Positions 50,105-59,144 of a stretch of DNA of 64,000 nt are shown piece by piece. Position numbers and translations under genes: made by a program. Origin of the DNA: Bacteroides caecigallinarum (GTDB lineage: Bacteria > Bacteroidota > Bacteroidia > Bacteroidales > Bacteroidaceae). Location: positions 1 to 64,000 of the forward strand of contig NZ_JACJLE010000008.1 in NCBI RefSeq assembly GCF_016901995.1, given 5' to 3'. The notes beneath the pieces are model-generated. The model had not been told where the DNA came from. It searched no databases and saw only the letters and a list, made by a program, of their open reading frames with translations. Within the stretch, counting starts at the first letter, position 1; each line of letters starts with the position of its first letter.

Positions 50105-52336
50105 TCAATATATGTATTCCACATCAGACTTCTTAAATCTCAGGATACGGGTATCATTCGGACCTGCTGAGTTCTTTGACGGATAAAGGCCATTCATTCC
50201 ACCCACGAAAAACCATCCCTGACCATTTGATGGATTATGAACGGCAATCAACAGATTGTTGTAATGGCCATGATTTATACCGTTATCATTCCACTGCGGA
50301 CTTGAGCCATACCACACAAGCGGCTCATACTCTGTCTCCGACTGATTATACATAGATATATAAATAAGATCTGTCAGTGACACTGTTCCTACGGTAACAT
50401 CATTTCTTCTGCGTTGCCTGCGCTGTATAGTGGTACTTCCATTCCAAGCTGTAGTATGCGAACCATCCCACATCAGCCAAATAGTTCCGCTTGTAGAATT
50501 GAATACTCTTTCAAAGTTCTCCATGGATGGCAATTCATAGCCGTCAGGAGCCAGAGCCTTAGCGTCTATCTTATTTATATGCTCGGTACTTGAAGAATAA
50601 CCTTCCAGTTTCGCCACTCCTCCATCGTCTATTACCTGAAGTCCTTGTGAACTCTTACCTTGATAATTCCATTTCCAGAGATTGAAGAACTCATCAGCCG
50701 TACAGTCCCTCAAATAATCGAATACTGTCTTACCGGCCATTACCGCAGGATCTGCCGATGAAAGAATCTGGTCTGAAAAGTTTTTTGCATCACCTATGGC
50801 ATTATACTTACACCACCATACTCCATTAAGCTTTGTAACAGGCAATCCCCAGTTACGGCGTGAAATAACGTATTCCTCTTTTTCAGAGCCATCAGCCGAA
50901 TTATTTATTACTATGCGTGCCTTCTGTACTCTGCCGTTTGCAGTCTTATCATTAGGACGCCATCCTCCAATAATACGTACCCTCTGACCTGACGTATCAA
51001 GTTTAACCCATTCGTCTTCTCCCTCGTCGTACTCAACAGTTATCGACTTCGATGCCGGAACTGTAAAGACACCAAGCTCATTATCTATATATTTTCCGAA
51101 ATCGAATGATGCATTGTCTTCAAAATGTATCAGTCCTTCCAGTTTAACCGGATGTTCAGACATTACAACATTTATATAATCATCAGCATAATTCTCATTC
51201 AGTCCTTTACGATGAAACATCAGTTTTCTCTCTACACGTTCCATACCAGGATACCATATTTTCTTTATTAGGCGAAACAGATTCTTTCCTACATTCTCCG
51301 CTCCTCCTATACGTTCAACGGTCATTGGAAGTTCAGGATCGGCTATCAGCTCCAGTTCATCGTCGCAATCTATGGAGAGAACGAAATCCGAAGCATAGTG
51401 TGACAATACTATTCCCCTGCGGTCAGAATCCACCTCTGTATTTGCAGGAAATGATGTTCCTTCCACGTCCACTGTCAGACCTCTTTCGTTTGGTGCAAGA
51501 TTAAAGTCACCTCCGTTTTCCCAATCTGTTACACTTAAGGTTACGTCAGCCTGTACAGATGCTTTAAACACATTTATAGTATAAACACAGTTTCTCTTTA
51601 GTATGGAAGGCATAGCAACTTCTTTTTCCACAGTTTCGCCATCTACATTTATGGTCAACACTGCAGAGATATTCTCCGAGGCCTGTTCGCACAGATAAGC
51701 CACTCCATATGTGTTACCGGTAAGAGGAGTTTCTATGACAGGAGTAACATCGTTGTAACCTGTACTTTCGGGTGATTCTACAGTATGACGGCGGTTCAGA
51801 TACGACTTCTGTGCCACATTCCTGAACATAATAGCCGGTACAGACAAATCGTGTTCTCCTGAAACGTTGACATCTATACGTGCTACTCCCCTATAAAGTT
51901 GCAAAACTCCATGGGACATGTCTGACAAGTCAATAACTCCACTCATATATCTCAGGTTTACACCTCCCTTATGTAGTATTGTGGTTGACAGCCACTCCTC
52001 CTCAGTCATACCTATATTATAAAAAGAAGAGGAATTATTTCCTTCTATATTGGCAACCATATAAAGACGCCCCTTACTGTCATCTATCTTGATGCCGGCC
52101 AAAGGATCTATATCAGCATAAACGCGTGTCATAACACCATTCTCAAAGAGACAGGCATGAAGTATTCCTATCTCCTTTGTTTCTGCTGTTTCATCATTTC
52201 CGGAACTATAATTATATGATGACACGCGTGGTAATATAACAGAATCTGTTCCACTATGCTCGTTCATCGCTTCTTTATCTGTACATGATATTACAGCAAG
52301 CGAAACAATTATAGCAAGTATGTTCTTTATAGACAT
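50105..52336 (-). CDS. FimB/Mfa2-like surface lipoprotein with C-terminal FISUMP-like domain (paralogue 1)
   Basis: Protein of 743 residues with a lipoprotein signal (LAVISCTD; Cys18). The N-terminal half has the beta-rich organisation of FimB/Mfa2-type fimbrial proteins (LQLYRGVARIDVNVSG; TPLTGNTYGVAYLCEQ). The C-terminal part (about 520-743) resembles the FISUMP domain (APDGYELPSMENFERVF, ending RILRFKKSDVEYIY). It shares RIIGGWRPND, NWGLPV and WWCKYN with the gene upstream, so the two are tandem duplicates. It is the last gene of a three-gene operon, 23 bases after its paralogue. It is probably a fimbrial accessory or adhesin on the cell surface; no function is proven. Confidence 0.75.
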   Translation of the reverse strand: MSIKNILAIIVSLAVISCTDKEAMNEHSGTDSVILPRVSSYNYSSGNDETAETKEIGILHACLFENGVMTRVYADIDPLAGIKIDDSKGRLYMVANIEGNNSSSFYNIGMTEEEWLSTTILHKGGVNLRYMSGVIDLSDMSHGVLQLYRGVARIDVNVSGEHDLSVPAIMFRNVAQKSYLNRRHTVESPESTGYNDVTPVIETPLTGNTYGVAYLCEQASENISAVLTINVDGETVEKEVAMPSILKRNCVYTINVFKASVQADVTLSVTDWENGGDFNLAPNERGLTVDVEGTSFPANTEVDSDRRGIVLSHYASDFVLSIDCDDELELIADPELPMTVERIGGAENVGKNLFRLIKKIWYPGMERVERKLMFHRKGLNENYADDYINVVMSEHPVKLEGLIHFEDNASFDFGKYIDNELGVFTVPASKSITVEYDEGEDEWVKLDTSGQRVRIIGGWRPNDKTANGRVQKARIVINNSADGSEKEEYVISRRNWGLPVTKLNGVWWCKYNAIGDAKNFSDQILSSADPAVMAGKTVFDYLRDCTADEFFNLWKWNYQGKSSQGLQVIDDGGVAKLEGYSSSTEHINKIDAKALAPDGYELPSMENFERVFNSTSGTIWLMWDGSHTTAWNGSTTIQRRQRRRNDVTVGTVSLTDLIYISMYNQSETEYEPLVWYGSSPQWNDNGINHGHYNNLLIAVHNPSNGQGWFFVGGMNGLYPSKNSAGPNDTRILRFKKSDVEYIY

Positions 52337-52359
52337 TTATTTTTTTATTTACAGATTAA

Positions 52360-54552
52360 TTAATAAATATATTCAACAGGAGATTTCACACATCTTATGG
52401 TTCTGGTTTTCTGTGCATTGCTTGCAGCGAACTTGAACCAGTTTCCTCTGCCATCAGTCTTGGAATAACCTTCGATCAGCCATGTACTGCCGGAATTACC
52501 GTATGTGGCAAACTGAATCATTTTCTTAGATATTCCTGTTTCACTCCACTGATGACCGAGACCGCATAATACAAGGTGCTCTCCTTCATACTCAAAATCG
52601 TAGAAGGTTACATTTCCGTACTCATAGCCCAGGAACATGGCTTCTCTCTCTACCACAGAGAAGTTTAATCTCTGCCCCAAACCATTATTGAACGCGCCAG
52701 GATTAAAATAACCTAAATTACAGTCAGTTCCCCAGGTGAAGAATCTATAATCGTCATAATCAGGTATTTCATAACCGTCAGGAGCCATATAACCAGGGGC
52801 TAATGTGCCGAAATTATCTGTTTTCGTAGAATATCCATCAAACAGGAATCCCGTACCGTCATTCTTCAATTTCAGACCATCGCGATTACCAGCCTGATAC
52901 TGGTCGCCAAGAACATTAAGGTACTCATCGTCCGTACACTCAGCCAGATAGTCTGCGATACTTCCACCACGGGCAGGATCGTTTGAAACAAGAATCTGAT
53001 CGGTAAAATCTTTAACGTTTCCACGAAGATTGTATTTACACCACCATGTACCGTTTATGTTTACTACTGGAAGTCCCCAATTCTGTCTCTTTACCGTATA
53101 GGTTTCATTGTGCACACCTGACACGTCGGAAATCAAAATTCTTCCTTCTTGTATTCTTCCATCAGCATCAGCGTCATTCGGGCGCCATCCTCCCAGAATA
53201 CGGTATGTGCCATCCGCTGTTTCTTCCAGTTTCATCCATTCCGGTGAGTTTTCGTCGAATTCCAGTCTTATCACTTTATCATCAGGAACGTTCAATACAG
53301 CCAGTTCACCGTCTATATATCGTCCGAAATCGCAAACATAGTTGCCGTCAAAACTCAACTGTCCCTGCATCTTAACCGGATTTGCCAAAAATACAAGTAC
53401 GACTCTACCACGTAATGCATCACCGTTATGTACATTAACATACATATATCCGTCCACACTACCAATCATCTTATTACTGCTGTTCACATTCAAGCTGCAC
53501 ACATTATCAAGATTTCCGGAACGAGAAACAGTGACATCAACACCTTTCACCAAGCCATCCACATTCACAGTCGAACCTAACTCACCGCTTATGGCAAGAC
53601 TGAAGTTTGTTTCCCATGATGGTATAAAAACAGAATCGCGTGTTTCATTAACTCTAATGCCATCACTCAGTACTGAGTTATCAACATCTACAAAAGCATT
53701 TCTAAGTCCGTCTGAGGTTGTTCCGTCGCCTTCCTGCCAAGAAGCTTCAACTACTTTTACTCTAAAGTCTTCACCATCAGCATAAACTTTAAGAGTATAA
53801 ACCTTATTGCGTGATATGTCCGGCAGAACAGTTTTCAGTCTGTGCCATGAGCCTGAGGATGTAACCATTATTTCTACTTCAAAGTTATTACCTTCCTGGT
53901 GCGGAAGATAAAACAATGTTTCTTCAGCAGCTGTTAGTGGACTATCAGCATAATCTTTCACCATATCAACCGGCTGAGGAATCTCTCCACCATTACCTCC
54001 CTCAAGTACATAACCTTTAGGGCAAACATTCTTCACCTTTACACTATTCACCGAAAGGTTATTGATTGGAGAACTTATATCTATTCGCGCTACAGAACGT
54101 TTCATAGCTACTGCTACAGACGATGTCTGTCGGCTTATAGTTGACATACCAGACAAAAACATTCCACCTGATACCATTTCATCGGCTCCGGCAGTCATTG
54201 CCTGGAAATCTGATTCAGAGGTCACGCCTACTTCAAAACCACGACCGGAAACGAGATTTCCTGCGTTAATCATAAAATATACATTACCACTCATGGCAGA
54301 AGGCTTAAGAGACACTACTCCATCTGTTCCCGGCTCAAGCGTTTCAAACACCTCTGTTAATATGCCACCATCGAAACGATATGCTGACACATTCTCTACT
54401 GCATCAGTTTCTGCGGCAGAAGTGCTAAGCAATGATAGTCTGGCAGCAACTACATCACCAGATGAATTTCCAGAGGATATGCTGTCATCACTACATGAGT
54501 AAAGAGAAATCAATAATAATGCAGATAATATATTTACAAGTCTTACTCTCAT
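52360..54552 (-). CDS. FimB/Mfa2-like surface lipoprotein with C-terminal FISUMP-like domain (paralogue 2)
   Basis: Protein of 730 residues with a lipoprotein signal (SLYSCSDD; Cys20). The organisation matches the gene downstream: an N-terminal FimB-like part (AMKRSVARIDISSPINN), a central region and a C-terminal FISUMP-like domain (APDGYEIPDYDDYRFF, ending RTIRCVKSPVEYIY). RILGGWRPND, NWGLPV and WWCKYN are shared, while the N-terminal halves have diverged much more than the C-terminal halves, as for exposed proteins under selection. It is the middle gene of the operon, 30 bases after the protease gene. Confidence 0.75.
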   Translation of the reverse strand: MRVRLVNILSALLLISLYSCSDDSISSGNSSGDVVAARLSLLSTSAAETDAVENVSAYRFDGGILTEVFETLEPGTDGVVSLKPSAMSGNVYFMINAGNLVSGRGFEVGVTSESDFQAMTAGADEMVSGGMFLSGMSTISRQTSSVAVAMKRSVARIDISSPINNLSVNSVKVKNVCPKGYVLEGGNGGEIPQPVDMVKDYADSPLTAAEETLFYLPHQEGNNFEVEIMVTSSGSWHRLKTVLPDISRNKVYTLKVYADGEDFRVKVVEASWQEGDGTTSDGLRNAFVDVDNSVLSDGIRVNETRDSVFIPSWETNFSLAISGELGSTVNVDGLVKGVDVTVSRSGNLDNVCSLNVNSSNKMIGSVDGYMYVNVHNGDALRGRVVLVFLANPVKMQGQLSFDGNYVCDFGRYIDGELAVLNVPDDKVIRLEFDENSPEWMKLEETADGTYRILGGWRPNDADADGRIQEGRILISDVSGVHNETYTVKRQNWGLPVVNINGTWWCKYNLRGNVKDFTDQILVSNDPARGGSIADYLAECTDDEYLNVLGDQYQAGNRDGLKLKNDGTGFLFDGYSTKTDNFGTLAPGYMAPDGYEIPDYDDYRFFTWGTDCNLGYFNPGAFNNGLGQRLNFSVVEREAMFLGYEYGNVTFYDFEYEGEHLVLCGLGHQWSETGISKKMIQFATYGNSGSTWLIEGYSKTDGRGNWFKFAASNAQKTRTIRCVKSPVEYIY

Positions 54553-54582
54553 ATTGAAATATTATTTATGATAATTCAGATA

Positions 54583-56442
54583 TTAATTGTATTTATGAGG
54601 ATTTGAGGCACTCTTTAGATAAACAGGCGAGTCTATAGGCATTTTGCCAATATTGTCAACATAAAAATTATTCATCAGCTGCTCTGCCCAAGGACCATAT
54701 GTGAACGAACTACTGTGTCCGTATCCCATAACGTGTCCCAATTCATGGAACATCACGCTACATGCATAACGGTTTGAATAATGTTCGAACCATCCTCGTT
54801 CATACGCTCCATACACACTCGGACTACCCAAACCGATTACACCATTACCCGGATAAACCAGTCCGACCTGAAGTGTCTGTCCACGTCGCATCTTGGCCAA
54901 TACTTCCTCCACCTTTACAGGTTGTTTATTATCGTCGTATAACTTACCCGCATTTTCATGAAGGATAGCTTCGTGCTCATCCATATCTATCATATAGGTA
55001 AAATTAAGGAAGAAAGCCACAGATTCTCTACAATGTACCGGACGGATACCCATCCAGTTACCTACCGGACCTCCATCTTCGCGTGAAGGGTCTCCACCAA
55101 AGAGTCCCCAGTAAAGTGTCCATCCGTGCTTTATTTCCTGTAGTTTTGCCCAATAAGGATCTGATGACAGTACCTTTAACTCCGCTCCGGCTATGGCGGC
55201 AGCGTCAAGTGCTGGAACATTGATTATGCGACCGCTCTCAGTACGACACATAGTGCCTTTCTCTACCAGTGGAGATGACTCATAGAAATCGCAGAAAGCA
55301 GGAATAGAATCGAAATATGCAAAATCGAAATATTCATCATCCACAGCCGCTATACGTGCTCTCACCGTTACTCCATAAAGCACACGTGGCGAATAAAAAC
55401 GCGCATGCAGTTGCCCCTCATCAGTAATGGAAAGCTGTAATGGCTTTGCCGTGTTAAAAGTGCGCTGAGACCTGTTCGTATAAACAGACACCGGTTCATC
55501 ATCATCCAGAATTCGTGCATGATTTCCAGCTCTGTAGGCATCGGCAGTTATATACATCACCGGAGAAATGTCATCAGGATGCTTTACCGCAGTACTTACC
55601 GTATGTGCATGATTTGGCAACACTTCCTGCTGGTCAAAATTGAAATCAAGAACAGTCTTCTCATCAAGATAGTTTACTGAAGTATGGAAAATATCTCCTT
55701 TTAAAACAGTACCGGCAATTGTAGGCATAAAAAGATAAGGTATGTCCTCTCTTAAAACCATATCGTCTATAATACCGTCACTTTCTCCCGTAAAAGCACC
55801 TCCACCTGTTATTGATGTATAGAACTTTGATTCAGCAAGTCTCACTCTTTTCTCGACTGTTGCATTACGCACATATCGGTTGTTATATACAAAATTGAAA
55901 TCCAAACGACCTACTATCCTGTCCTGTGTAACTTCGCTGTCAATGCTGATAACTTCAGTGCTACCTCCTTCAGCAGGAACTAAACGGACTGTAAACGGTG
56001 TACACGAATAAAAATACTCCGCTTCCAGAGGTTTGTGCAGATCCGAAGGAAACACCAGCCATTCATCATCCATACTTGATATTTCATTTATCTCGGCACG
56101 ATCGGCCGTTTCATCACCCTTTATAGCCAAAACTAGCAGGTTATAGTCTCCCTCATGAAGACCTTCGGCATATATTTCCGAAGTTAGCGCATTATATTTG
56201 CCATGTACTGTAGTCATTACATCGCCTTCAGAGTCGGCTATGTAGAAAAAGACTTTGTCATAATCGCCTGTACTTACAGATTCTGTACGCGAGTTAATGT
56301 CACCAATGTATGCAGACTTTTTCAAACGAAAACGTATGCCACTGCGTCCAGAACCTGTATTACTATTATTCATCATCTCGTCGTTAGTACACGACACCAT
56401 AAAAAGAAAGCCTATAAGTGCAAATAGTGTTATCCTTTTCAT
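54583..56442 (-). CDS. FimB-like lipoprotein with C-terminal metzincin zinc protease site
   Basis: Protein of 619 residues with a lipoprotein signal (FLFMVSCTND; Cys18). The N-terminal part (about 30-290) resembles FimB/Mfa2 domains (TGDYDKVFFYIADSEGDVM; VGRLDFNFVYNNRYVRN). The C-terminal part holds HELGHVMGYGH with H566, E567, H570, G573 and H576, a complete metzincin motif (HExxHxxGxxH), and a Met-turn candidate in EQLMNNF about 20 residues later. It should be an active cell-surface protease. As first gene of the operon it could process the two proteins encoded after it, by analogy with protease maturation of Porphyromonas fimbriae, but this is inference. Confidence 0.8.
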   Translation of the reverse strand: MKRITLFALIGFLFMVSCTNDEMMNNSNTGSGRSGIRFRLKKSAYIGDINSRTESVSTGDYDKVFFYIADSEGDVMTTVHGKYNALTSEIYAEGLHEGDYNLLVLAIKGDETADRAEINEISSMDDEWLVFPSDLHKPLEAEYFYSCTPFTVRLVPAEGGSTEVISIDSEVTQDRIVGRLDFNFVYNNRYVRNATVEKRVRLAESKFYTSITGGGAFTGESDGIIDDMVLREDIPYLFMPTIAGTVLKGDIFHTSVNYLDEKTVLDFNFDQQEVLPNHAHTVSTAVKHPDDISPVMYITADAYRAGNHARILDDDEPVSVYTNRSQRTFNTAKPLQLSITDEGQLHARFYSPRVLYGVTVRARIAAVDDEYFDFAYFDSIPAFCDFYESSPLVEKGTMCRTESGRIINVPALDAAAIAGAELKVLSSDPYWAKLQEIKHGWTLYWGLFGGDPSREDGGPVGNWMGIRPVHCRESVAFFLNFTYMIDMDEHEAILHENAGKLYDDNKQPVKVEEVLAKMRRGQTLQVGLVYPGNGVIGLGSPSVYGAYERGWFEHYSNRYACSVMFHELGHVMGYGHSSSFTYGPWAEQLMNNFYVDNIGKMPIDSPVYLKSASNPHKYN

Positions 56443-56763
56443 CTCAAATTATTAAATGTTATACGCCTATCAAGACAAAAAGAACAACAGGTTTGTTCAA
56501 TATTAACGACAAATATTTTACTTTTTCGAGCTTTTTTGATTTAAATCAATATAAAATGGCGGTAAAAACTTCACATCACATAAATTATAAAAGCATTTTG
56601 TTACATGTTAAAATAGAGTATCCTCAGAAAACGAAGTTGTTTCCTGAGACCTGGAAAAACATTGATATAGAAAGAAGAATAATAAAATGACATCACTATA
56701 AAAGTTTAAACAAAATCACAAGTATTTTCCACAATATTATAACAATTATAAAAGCCGAAAAAA
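56443..56763. other. Intergenic region between divergent lipoprotein and lyase genes
   Basis: A 359-base gap between the two start codons. The right end holds the lyase promoter. A 90-codon frame crosses part of it (56418-56690) but starts inside the neighbouring gene and has no protein-like features. No promoter was found for the lipoprotein operon. Confidence 0.4.
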
Positions 56764-56771
56764 TATCTTTG
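56764..56771 (+). promoter_or_regulatory. -7 element of the heparinase-like lyase gene
   Basis: TATCTTTG is a full TAnnTTTG match, 30 bases before the ATG at 56802. A TTG codon that could be taken for a start at 56769 overlaps this box, which argues for the later ATG. Confidence 0.65.
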
Positions 56772-56801
56772 TCTAACAATAACAATTTAATTATAATTCA
56801 C

Positions 56802-59144
56802 ATGAAACACACATTTATATTATTAACACTATGTATCTGTTCATTTTTCAACCACATCTTTTGTCAAGAGTTGAATAAAGGAGTAACCTGGTGTAATATG
56901 GACGGAGTGTCTGTACCAATACCTCCTAAGACTCACCCAAGACTTTATATCCGTCCAAATGAAATTTCAGAACTAAAAGAAAGGCTACAAACACCTGAAG
57001 CACAACAAACAATAGCTGTGCTAAAAGGGCTTTCCAAACCTAGAACTGCCATTGAAGAAAAAGCAGAAGGAGAAAACCGCGGTTTCAGATATTATTATAA
57101 AATGAGAGGTATAACCAGTGAAGTACAATTACAAGCGTTAGATTATCTCGTTAATGGAAAGAAAGAACAAGCCAGAAAAGCCATTACGGCAATGTTAGAC
57201 ACATTAAAGAATACCAATTTTGGAATAGAAAAGGACAATTCAAGAGCAAGTGGAGCTATGCTTATGGTTGGAGCCATAGTCTATGACTGGTGTTACGACC
57301 AAATGAAGAAAACCGAAAAAGAAGAATATATAAATTCCTTTATACGAATAGCCCAAACAATGGAATGTGGTTATCCTCCCCGCGACAATCAACCAATTTC
57401 CGGTCATCCATCGGAATGGATGATTATGCGCGACTTATTATCTGCAGGAATAGCAATATATGATGAATATCCGGATATGTACAATCATGTAATAAAAATG
57501 CTATTCCGCGATTACATACCTGCAAGAAACTTTTTTTACGAAGGACATAACTACCACCAAGGTACAAATTATATTCACGTTCGTTTCGCATGTGATTTAT
57601 TCCCTTTATGGATTCTTGACAAAATGGGTGCAGGATGTGTATATAACTCATCCCAACAGTTTGTACTCTATGATATGATATACAGAAGAAGGCCCGATGG
57701 AGTTGTTTTGCCATCAGGTGATGATTACCCTCAGAACCGCCCTACCACTCTTACTTTCCCGCTACCGATGCTCCTCGCTTCTAGTTATTATAAAGATGAG
57801 TATTTGGCATACGAATTTGAGAGAAATCCACATTTGGAAAATTCCGGAAATGAAGTTATGAATCATTGCCTTATTTTTGACCTGTTATGGAGAGACTATA
57901 CTTTAAAAGGTAAGGCTCCTGACGATTTACCATTAACACGTTTTTCCGGTTCTCCTTTTGGATGGATGATAGCCAGAACAGGATGGGGAGAAAACAGCGT
58001 CATAGCAGAAATGAAAATAAACGAACATTTTGTGGGTAATCATCAACATTTGGATGGTGGAAGTTTTCAAATATATTATAAAGGTCCTCTCGCTATTGAT
58101 GCAGGAGCATATAGCGGTAGTTCAGGGGGTTACAACAGTCCACACAACAAAAATTATTTCAAACGCACTATCGCGCATAACTCTTTATTAGTTTATGACC
58201 CTGATGAGAAATTTGCCTGCCACAATTATGGAGGAGCAAACAAATCAAGTTTTGCCGCTAATGATGGAGGACAAAGAATGCCCGGTGATGGTTGGAAAAC
58301 ATGCAACAGTATGAACGACCTGTTATCCGATGAATATACTGTGGGAAAAACAATCGCCCATGGATATGGACCTGACAATAACATGCCAGAGTATTCTTAT
58401 TTAAAAGGTGACATTACAAAAGCATATTCAAACAAAGTAAAGGAAGCTAAGCGTTCTTTTGTTTTTCTTAATTTCAAATCGGAAGTAGTTCCTGCCGCAT
58501 TAATAGTATTCGATAAAGTAGTTTCTTCAAATCCTGATTTCAAGAAATACTGGCTTCTACACAGTATAGAGGAGCCTGAAATAGACAATAACTCAATTAC
58601 AATAAAACGGACTAAAAACGGTGATTCCGGCATATTAAAAAATCATGTTCTACTACCTGTTTTACAGAACGCTTCAATAGAGAAAATTGGTGGTCCCGGT
58701 AAGGAATTCTATGTATTCGGCCAGAATTATAAAAATGATGCTTTAGAATCTTATCCTGATCCCGCAAACGAACGTGGAGCATGGAGAGTAGAATTATCAC
58801 CAATACAACCATCAGGAGAAGACTTATTCCTGAATGTCATGCAAATGACAGACAACATTGAAAAGACTTACGAAGTCAAACGTATAGATTCCGAACGCAT
58901 TGTCGGTGTCCGGATAAAAGACAGAGTTGTAACATTCAGTAAAGGAAGTAACGAAATAACAGGTAAGTTTGATTTCACTATTAACGGGGAGGGGAAATAC
59001 ACATTTGTAATCACAGATCTTAAAGCCGGCAACTGGCAAATAAAGAAAAACGGGAAAATAATTATCCCTACTCTTGAAGCTAAATCAGATGAAGGGACAT
59101 TATACTTTGAAGGAACTGCCGGTAAATATGAGTTTAACAGATAA
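56802..59144 (+). CDS. Heparinase II/III family polysaccharide lyase, secreted
   Basis: Protein of 780 residues from ATG 56802. This start gives a clean signal peptide (MKHTFILLTLCICSFFNHIFCQ), whereas the upstream TTG lies in the promoter. An N-terminal alpha/alpha toroid (about 30-390) and a C-terminal beta-sandwich (about 400-780) form the heparinase II/III layout. The conserved lyase residues are in HNYHQGTNY and NEHFVGNHQHLDGGSFQIYY. Members cleave uronic-acid-containing polysaccharides by beta-elimination: heparin/heparan sulfate, alginate or related glycans. It faces the FucP-like transporter, ROK, PHP-like and sulfatase genes that probably work with it. Confidence 0.88.
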   Translation: MKHTFILLTLCICSFFNHIFCQELNKGVTWCNMDGVSVPIPPKTHPRLYIRPNEISELKERLQTPEAQQTIAVLKGLSKPRTAIEEKAEGENRGFRYYYKMRGITSEVQLQALDYLVNGKKEQARKAITAMLDTLKNTNFGIEKDNSRASGAMLMVGAIVYDWCYDQMKKTEKEEYINSFIRIAQTMECGYPPRDNQPISGHPSEWMIMRDLLSAGIAIYDEYPDMYNHVIKMLFRDYIPARNFFYEGHNYHQGTNYIHVRFACDLFPLWILDKMGAGCVYNSSQQFVLYDMIYRRRPDGVVLPSGDDYPQNRPTTLTFPLPMLLASSYYKDEYLAYEFERNPHLENSGNEVMNHCLIFDLLWRDYTLKGKAPDDLPLTRFSGSPFGWMIARTGWGENSVIAEMKINEHFVGNHQHLDGGSFQIYYKGPLAIDAGAYSGSSGGYNSPHNKNYFKRTIAHNSLLVYDPDEKFACHNYGGANKSSFAANDGGQRMPGDGWKTCNSMNDLLSDEYTVGKTIAHGYGPDNNMPEYSYLKGDITKAYSNKVKEAKRSFVFLNFKSEVVPAALIVFDKVVSSNPDFKKYWLLHSIEEPEIDNNSITIKRTKNGDSGILKNHVLLPVLQNASIEKIGGPGKEFYVFGQNYKNDALESYPDPANERGAWRVELSPIQPSGEDLFLNVMQMTDNIEKTYEVKRIDSERIVGVRIKDRVVTFSKGSNEITGKFDFTINGEGKYTFVITDLKAGNWQIKKNGKIIIPTLEAKSDEGTLYFEGTAGKYEFNR

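Follow-up and report, generated by a model that had tools for sequence, protein, structure and literature searches.

Three lipoprotein genes, here named P1, P2 and P3, adjoin one another on the minus strand of the window, the 64,000-nucleotide stretch of Bacteroides caecigallinarum DNA that was analyzed (Table 1). Their open reading frames (ORFs), lipoprotein-type signals and signal cysteines bear out a preliminary description, made from the sequence alone, that had placed three such genes at positions 50105 to 56442. The signals end at Cys 18 (P1), Cys 20 (P2) and Cys 18 (P3), and this cysteine is invariant in the aligned rows (66 P1, 58 P2 and 60 P3). P1 joins a head of fimbrillin fold to a C-terminal region that resembles metzincin-type zinc proteases. 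Scans of the three proteins against Pfam and NCBIfam returned no match above cut-off. P1 is present as a single copy in its genome, and its closest named relative (94%) likewise comes from B. caecigallinarum. The genes are separated by 30 bp (P1-P2) and 23 bp (P2-P3), gap lengths which by themselves suggest co-transcription.

Table 1. Coordinates of the three genes and their features within the window
Feature	Position	Strand	Description and basis
P1	54583-56442	minus	ORF, 619-aa lipoprotein: fimbrillin-fold head, immunoglobulin (Ig)-like domain, predicted metzincin-type catalytic domain
P2	52360-54552	minus	ORF, 730-aa lipoprotein: fimbrillin head (31-275), two Ig-like domains (286-494), FISUMP-like tail (495-730)
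P3	50105-52336	minus	ORF, 743-aa lipoprotein, P2 paralogue; layout as P2 by alignment
P1 lipoprotein signal, residues 1-18	56389-56442	minus	Cys18 invariant in 66 rows
P1 head, residues 32-291	55570-56349	minus	Two-domain fimbrillin fold; model and VIA-align matches
P1 Arg52, beta1-beta2 loop	56287-56289	minus	Candidate processing site of P1 itself; row conservation and analogy to Mfa1/Mfa3/Mfa4
P1 Ig-like beta-sandwich, residues 332-435	55138-55449	minus	Weak fold matches; region common to 9tpb
P1 catalytic domain, residues 436-619	54586-55137	minus	Predicted; conservation and profile match to 9tpb
Zinc motif HELGHVMGYGH, P1 residues 566-576	54715-54747	minus	Sequence motif
P2 FISUMP-like tail	52363-53070	minus	PF09603 match below cut-off
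P3 tail	50108-50845	minus	Homologue of the P2 tail; no Pfam match

Linkage and conservation of the gene set

Homologous loci were retrieved with the patterns IRPVHCRE and S[SA]FTYGPW, and the best 80 of 118 relatives were kept as named loci. Conservation at these two stretches and the absence of broken P1 genes are partly selected for by this choice; HExxH was no search pattern. Length limits were passed by 77 P1, 73 P2, 69 P3 and 37 fourth-gene ORFs (the fourth gene is described below). Rows at least 88% identical to a retained row were taken out, ORFs with internal stops in the stretch taken were dropped (P2 of L056, L067 and L087; P3 of L109), and P2 of L078 and L114 was additionally omitted from alignment A6. 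The final alignments hold the 66 P1, 58 P2 and 60 P3 rows mentioned above and 31 fourth genes.

A P2-type ORF starts within 500 bp past the P1 end in all 80 named loci. Next comes, in 78 of them, a P3-type ORF that is 400 aa or longer; the contigs of the remaining two (L078 and L115) end first. Besides these, P2 adjoins P1 in five class-1 loci of the order sample, among which L179 stops at the contig edge. A total of 251 genomes of the family were searched with P1 and with a P2 profile. P1 matched in 21 genomes, in 13 at full length; one further genome, G232, holds a distant full-length match, and seven match P1 solely from about residue 280-310 onward. The P2 profile matched in 20 genomes and was full length in exactly the 13 with full-length P1. 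Beyond these, the profile matched the distant partner in G232 and a piece of 355 positions in G112, a genome without P1, and five genomes gave weak matches confined to the head. The operon neighbours vary from genome to genome, and the gene order is kept amid these changes at about 50% protein identity. Because full-length P1 and P2 have an identical distribution, in 13 genomes out of 251, and the gene order is maintained in this way, the linkage goes beyond chance. The three genes thus co-occur in relatives, as the operon proposed in the preliminary description requires.

In all three proteins, the C-terminal ends are held and the heads drift. Mean pairwise identity along the 66 P1 rows rises from 0.44 in the head to 0.54 in the Ig-like domain and 0.76 in the catalytic domain. 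The corresponding values for head, middle and tail are 0.38, 0.50 and 0.59 in P2, and 0.34, 0.49 and 0.61 in P3. The alignment of P2 with P3 spans their whole length (29% identical, E 7e-88), consistent with their earlier labeling as tandem paralogues. The accompanying claim of conserved C-termini and diverged N-termini holds in direction and is clear among relatives; within this genome the gradient is modest, with P2-P3 identities of 28% (head), 35% (middle) and 37% (tail).

In 38 of the 80 named loci (for example, L084:13141-14028), P2 and P3 are separated by a fourth gene, which encodes a single-head protein of about 300 aa; the window lacks this gene. At E<0.01, its rows match Mfa2 (6/31), Mfa_like_1 (14/31) and Big_5 (19/31), and Big_5 also matches 4 of the 60 P3 rows. 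The Big_5 results were not used in the interpretation, and single low Pfam matches to unrelated families were disregarded. The fourth gene possibly encodes an anchor or adaptor.

P2 or P3 is split or carries an internal stop in L052, L055, L056 and L087, where P1 is open. P1 is open in all 80 loci, partly by selection, and the split partners reflect either assembly error or variation.

Fold of the heads and the catalytic region of P1

The P1 model, built from 66 sequences, has a mean predicted local distance difference test (pLDDT) score of 90.2. When compared using VIA-align, its head matched PG_0181 (4rdb; Z 12.9, root mean square deviation (rmsd) 4.2, 234 aligned), the anchor Mfa2 (5nfi; Z 11.8, rmsd 6.2, 232 aligned), Mfa4 (Z 10.9, rmsd 3.6, 205 aligned) and FimA (6jzk; Z 9.4, rmsd 4.2, 212 aligned). 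Since PG_0181, Mfa2, Mfa4 and FimA are all matched, the fold is that of the whole superfamily and not of the anchor alone. Residues 332 to 435 of P1 weakly resemble Ig-like domains (Z 4 to 5). The P2 model (58 sequences) has a pLDDT of 86.5 and a predicted template modeling score (pTM) of 0.58, and its head matches 3up6 (Z 17.1, rmsd 3.3, 240 aligned). The two Ig- or cadherin-like domains modeled behind the P2 head reach a Z of about 7, which may merely reflect a common arrangement.

The P1 and P2 heads share with type V fimbriae of Porphyromonas gingivalis (Mfa1-5, FimA-E) the lipoprotein signal and the two-domain beta-sandwich, and P3 is expected to have the same fold by homology. A free C-terminal donor strand, a trait of shaft subunits, was not found: the P1 and P2 heads run into further domains in the models, as the P3 head does by alignment. 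Unlike type V subunits, P1 to P3 have C-terminal enzyme or FISUMP-like domains, and P2 and P3 are without the conserved loop arginine that P1 has in common with such subunits.

This arginine, Arg52, lies in the beta1-beta2 loop of P1. Position 52 is Arg in 50 and Lys in 5 of the 66 P1 rows, giving a basic residue in 55, and 62 rows have an Arg somewhere in the loop. The best loop column is Arg or Lys in 9/58 P2, 8/60 P3 and 3/31 fourth-gene rows. In Porphyromonas, an Arg in the loop behind the first strand is the cleavage site of the shaft and tip subunits Mfa1, Mfa3 and Mfa4, whereas the anchor Mfa2 is left uncut (PMC5789003). By this analogy, the conserved loop Arg puts P1 closer to a cleavable subunit than to an anchor. 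The FimB/Mfa2-like N-terminus of the preliminary description therefore stands as a fimbrillin fold, supported by the model and matching Mfa2 among others, and finds no support in the sense of an anchor: a FimB/Mfa2-type anchor was rejected on account of the conserved basic residue in the first loop.

Cleavage of P1 at Arg52 could fall to another protease, and a C11-family peptidase encoded in the genome would be a candidate. A search for C25 peptidases gave no match in this genome and none in control genomes either, and is thus uninformative. The FimA family (PF06321) matches on three other contigs of the genome and not on the window's contig (C221), in line with the earlier remark that no standard fimbrillin gene stands beside the operon; Mfa_like_1 was not part of this genome-wide search. 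Separate FimA- and Mfa2-type loci lie on contigs C36 and C209.

The C-terminal region of P1 contains the complete HExxHxxGxxH motif that had been pointed out earlier, with Glu567 in the catalytic position. The motif is intact in all 80 named loci, and H566, E567, H570, G573 and H576 are invariant in the 66 P1 rows. In a phmmer search, residues 301 to 582 align to 9tpb (E 6.7e-12), which its depositors named a metzincin, and a profile of 15 relatives spanning P1 residues 293 to 619 matches the same entry in the PDB at E 2e-35. This Ig-like plus catalytic profile also finds HomA (9tpy, E 1.9e-5; 9tp2, E 0.009), whereas the first members of the collagenase-type matrixins, the serralysins and myroilysin each follow at E 0.01 to 0.12. 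M590, a candidate Met-turn residue, is present in at least 90% of the 66 P1 rows. Several distant relatives have a Met four residues past the third His, where P1 has Phe580. By sequence, the region is related to a solved metzincin, and it is a predicted metzincin-type zinc protease. Among the best 50 matches listed in each of two fold searches with P1, no chain was named a metzincin, and the head filled both lists.

P1 has the Ig-like and catalytic regions in common with the solved metzincin (9tpb/9tpc) and with HomA (9tpy/9tp2). The 9tpb chain has 356 residues and is matched from residue 36 on, and its aligned part is without a fimbrillin head, unlike P1. With matrixins, serralysins and myroilysin, P1 shares HExxHxxGxxH and weak profile similarity around the active-site helix, while its accessory domains differ. 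Membership of P1 in the matrixin family was rejected, as its score for PF00413 (15.8 bits) is below the gathering cut-off of 24. The elastase FP0506 of Flavobacterium psychrophilum is, like P1, a predicted surface lipoprotein zinc protease of Bacteroidota outside known peptidase families; its authors place it in the gluzincin clan by an ExxA motif (PMC6414381). A relation of P1 to FP0506 was rejected on this assignment, and P1, in contrast, has a third His in its motif. A literature search returned nothing linked to 9tpb, to HomA as a peptidase or to a fimbrillin-headed metzincin, though subscription journals lay mostly outside its scope and the result is no proof of absence.

Partners of the protease in other lineages

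The tails of P2 and P3 had been described as FISUMP-like. The P2 tail matches FISUMP (PF09603) at 14.9 bits, against a gathering cut-off of 33.9, and the P3 tail gives no match; at E<0.01, the domain is found in 6/58 P2 rows and 0/60 P3 rows. The label is thus a weak one. Two more distant proteases, placed in the same FISUMP branch, also stand beside head proteins. Next to the protease in L185, the tail matches those of P2 and P3 (E about 1e-26), and in L042, the partner has a true FISUMP tail, which at 63.5 bits is over the cut-off.

Outside this FISUMP branch, the same protease is accompanied by a different, beta-propeller-like partner, which we report as new. A total of 21 such loci were considered (L036-L041, L043, L157-L161, L182-L184 and L186-L191), and a propeller-like domain lies beside or is fused to the protease in 18 of them, whether or not a fimbrillin head is present. 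The proteases of a sister clade (L036-L041) differ in their N-terminal part, which in the two proteins scanned resembles Mfa_like_1 plus BACON below the Pfam cut-offs. The next gene of this clade encodes an Mfa2-type head (over the Pfam cut-off in 5/5 scanned) followed by a propeller-like repeat tail (6/6); in L036, it is split into two ORFs. In a genus of the same class but another order, for which 10 genomes were found and the gene neighbours read in 5, the protease is a headless lipoprotein of 404 to 412 aa. It is followed in all five loci by a propeller-like lipoprotein partner of 342 to 344 aa, the ends of the two genes overlapping on the chosen starts. L043, L182 and L183 encode a fusion of the protease with the propeller-like domain, and behind it comes a second copy of that domain. 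L186 likewise has a protease-propeller fusion (L186:5062-7164), with a separate copy upstream, and in L184, L188 and L189, protease and propeller-like partner adjoin.

The two propeller groups are linked through L043 and its like, as judged from profile and pairwise matches. The L043 tail matches the other-order partner (E 8e-13). The separate copy in L043 is similar to that partner (E 4e-13) as well as to the sister-clade tails (E 4e-14), whereas the other-order partners and the sister-clade tails, when compared directly, show no significant similarity (E 4e-4 at best by blastp and no better than 0.4 by profile). A profile of the other-order partners and L043, made without the sister clade, retrieved the six sister-clade partners (E 8e-10 to 0.002) and those of L182-L184, L186, L188 and L189 (E 8e-14 or better). 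P1, P2 and P3 are not in its list. When queried against the PDB, a profile of 11 partner domains matched an NHL beta-propeller (E 2.9e-6), suggesting that the partners adopt this fold. A search for a propeller partner in the window's own genome, run without a positive control, gave no match.

A tree was built from 25 catalytic domains, and on it the clade of the window is joined to the sister clade with propeller-like partners (99/99). Three changes of the FISUMP-partner label are required on this tree, forced by its starred branches.

Possible roles and genomic context

Most loci pair the protease core with a lipoprotein partner, regardless of the head or of the partner's tail, and a surface protease with a recognition partner, docked in Bacteroidales by fimbrillin heads, is the simplest account of the gene set. 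We give an even chance to the explanation that P1, P2 and P3 form a surface-displayed protease with recognition partners, docked through fimbrillin heads. P1 would be an outer-surface lipoprotein. Its head would dock it in a common assembly with P2 and P3, and its C-terminal domain would cut proteins outside the cell. The P2 and P3 tails would bind the target or bring it into position; candidate targets are proteins of the host mucosa, of the diet or of microbes. The protease would be the constant part and the partner tail would vary by lineage, being beta-propeller-like or FISUMP-like, and P1 itself may be processed at Arg52 by another protease. It is further possible, if rather doubtful, that a single metzincin core with an exchangeable partner exists across the Bacteroidota and that in Bacteroidales both gained fimbrillin heads; donor-strand exchange would then assemble the protease onto a fimbria-like structure or at its tip.

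Several observations weigh against a protease with exchangeable recognition partners. Both the FISUMP label of the window's tails and the Pfam matches of single propeller-like members are below cut-off, and the beta-propeller fold of the partners is a prediction from profiles. Profiles of the P2 and P3 tails miss the L042 tail, which is truly FISUMP (E 2.4 and 0.056), so that the three label changes on the tree are a lead that rests partly on treating possibly differing tails as alike. The tree itself has a midpoint root, long branches (L042, L185 and L189) and an L029 row still carrying its head (584 aa). No recognizable partner lies beside the catalytic domain in L187, L190 and L191, and the L186 motif, HEFGHGMGYGD, has an Asp at the third-ligand position. 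Asp occurs as third zinc ligand in some other metzincins. Conservation of the loop Arg is by itself no demonstration of cleavage, and the partner tail, whether propeller or FISUMP-like, could act as an inhibitor of the protease instead of recruiting a target.

This last idea can be framed as an explanation of its own, in which the tail keeps the protease inactive until a signal arrives. Adjacent or overlapping genes and fusions would fit such a tightly coupled regulator equally well, whereas two unrelated kinds of tail, and the pair of partners that the protease has in the window, read more easily as recognition modules than as one inhibitor; although the latter is an argument only, we give latency a small chance. 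We hold it similarly improbable that P1 is a dedicated maturase, trimming P2, P3 or other fimbrillins for polymerization in the role that gingipains have in Porphyromonas. Such maturation, put forward in the preliminary description, would explain the operon linkage with fimbrillin-fold lipoproteins, but a conserved basic loop column is seen in P1 and not in P2, P3 or the fourth gene, and for this reason we rank it below an outward-acting protease; a maturase of other specificity would escape this comparison. In addition, the protease is matched in few of the family genomes, while this genome has one P1 alongside further FimA/Mfa2-type loci, and headless protease relatives are paired with propeller-like lipoproteins. 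An outward-acting protease with exchangeable partners is thus likelier than a fimbrial maturase. Assembly or shedding of the partners by P1, which the preliminary description also named, may still occur. A sheddase or length regulator, freeing P2, P3 or whole fimbriae from the surface, would be expected at the same surface location, and the strict linkage agrees with it. The fusion of a partner domain to the protease in other lineages would be odd for a protease and its released substrate, which makes this role very improbable.

The docked protease overlaps with another explanation, which adds polymerization: P1, P2 and P3 would be tip subunits of a type V-like fimbria, capping pili made from shaft genes elsewhere. 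The loop Arg of P1, as in tip and shaft subunits, agrees with this, as do the models, in which C-terminal domains replace the donor strand, the FimA-type and Mfa2-type loci elsewhere in the genome, and the fourth gene of 38 loci with its Mfa2-like rows. The contig of the window has no FimA-family match, however, and P2 and P3 have no conserved loop Arg. We consider a protease-tipped fimbria unlikely, if still a serious candidate.

Fimbriae of gut Bacteroidales are mainly treated as adhesins. If a surface-displayed protease with recognition partners is indeed carried on such heads, it would constitute a targeted surface protease with a changeable partner, and other unannotated fimbrillin-headed lipoproteins would need to be read for cargo and not for binding alone. 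The gene set offers a defined group of proteins for testing how commensal metzincins find their targets, and it gives reason to inspect the gene neighbours of the solved 9tpb and HomA.

Upstream of P1, the direct neighbour is a divergent gene (56769-59144) that we take to resemble a heparinase II/III-type lyase. No inverted repeats of 10 or more were found at 56350-56900, and a phase-variable P1 promoter was rejected on this basis. The Bacteroides promoter pattern has nine matches in the window and none within the gap upstream of P1, and sigma-70-type sites and terminators in the window are not more frequent than in shuffled sequences. The best single promoter-like site (11/12; minus strand, 56611-56584) is located inside that gap. 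In 36 loci (for example, L058, L064, L074 and L111), a divergent gene that starts no more than 900 bp from P1 on its upstream side encodes a regulator of Crp/Fnr type, about 203 aa long, with a cNMP-binding domain over cut-off in 4/4 scanned; upstream sequence of that length is available for 76 of the 80 loci. The window has no such regulator upstream of P1. In one genome, P1 is preceded at 24 bp by a gene of 337 aa (L032:11039-12052) that has no Pfam match and whose start, on visual inspection, looks like that of a lipoprotein. Finally, 20 of the 80 loci (L044-L123) bear bird-derived names (gallinarum, pullorum, avium and similar) in a sampling that was uncontrolled, and a link of the gene set with the avian gut is possible.

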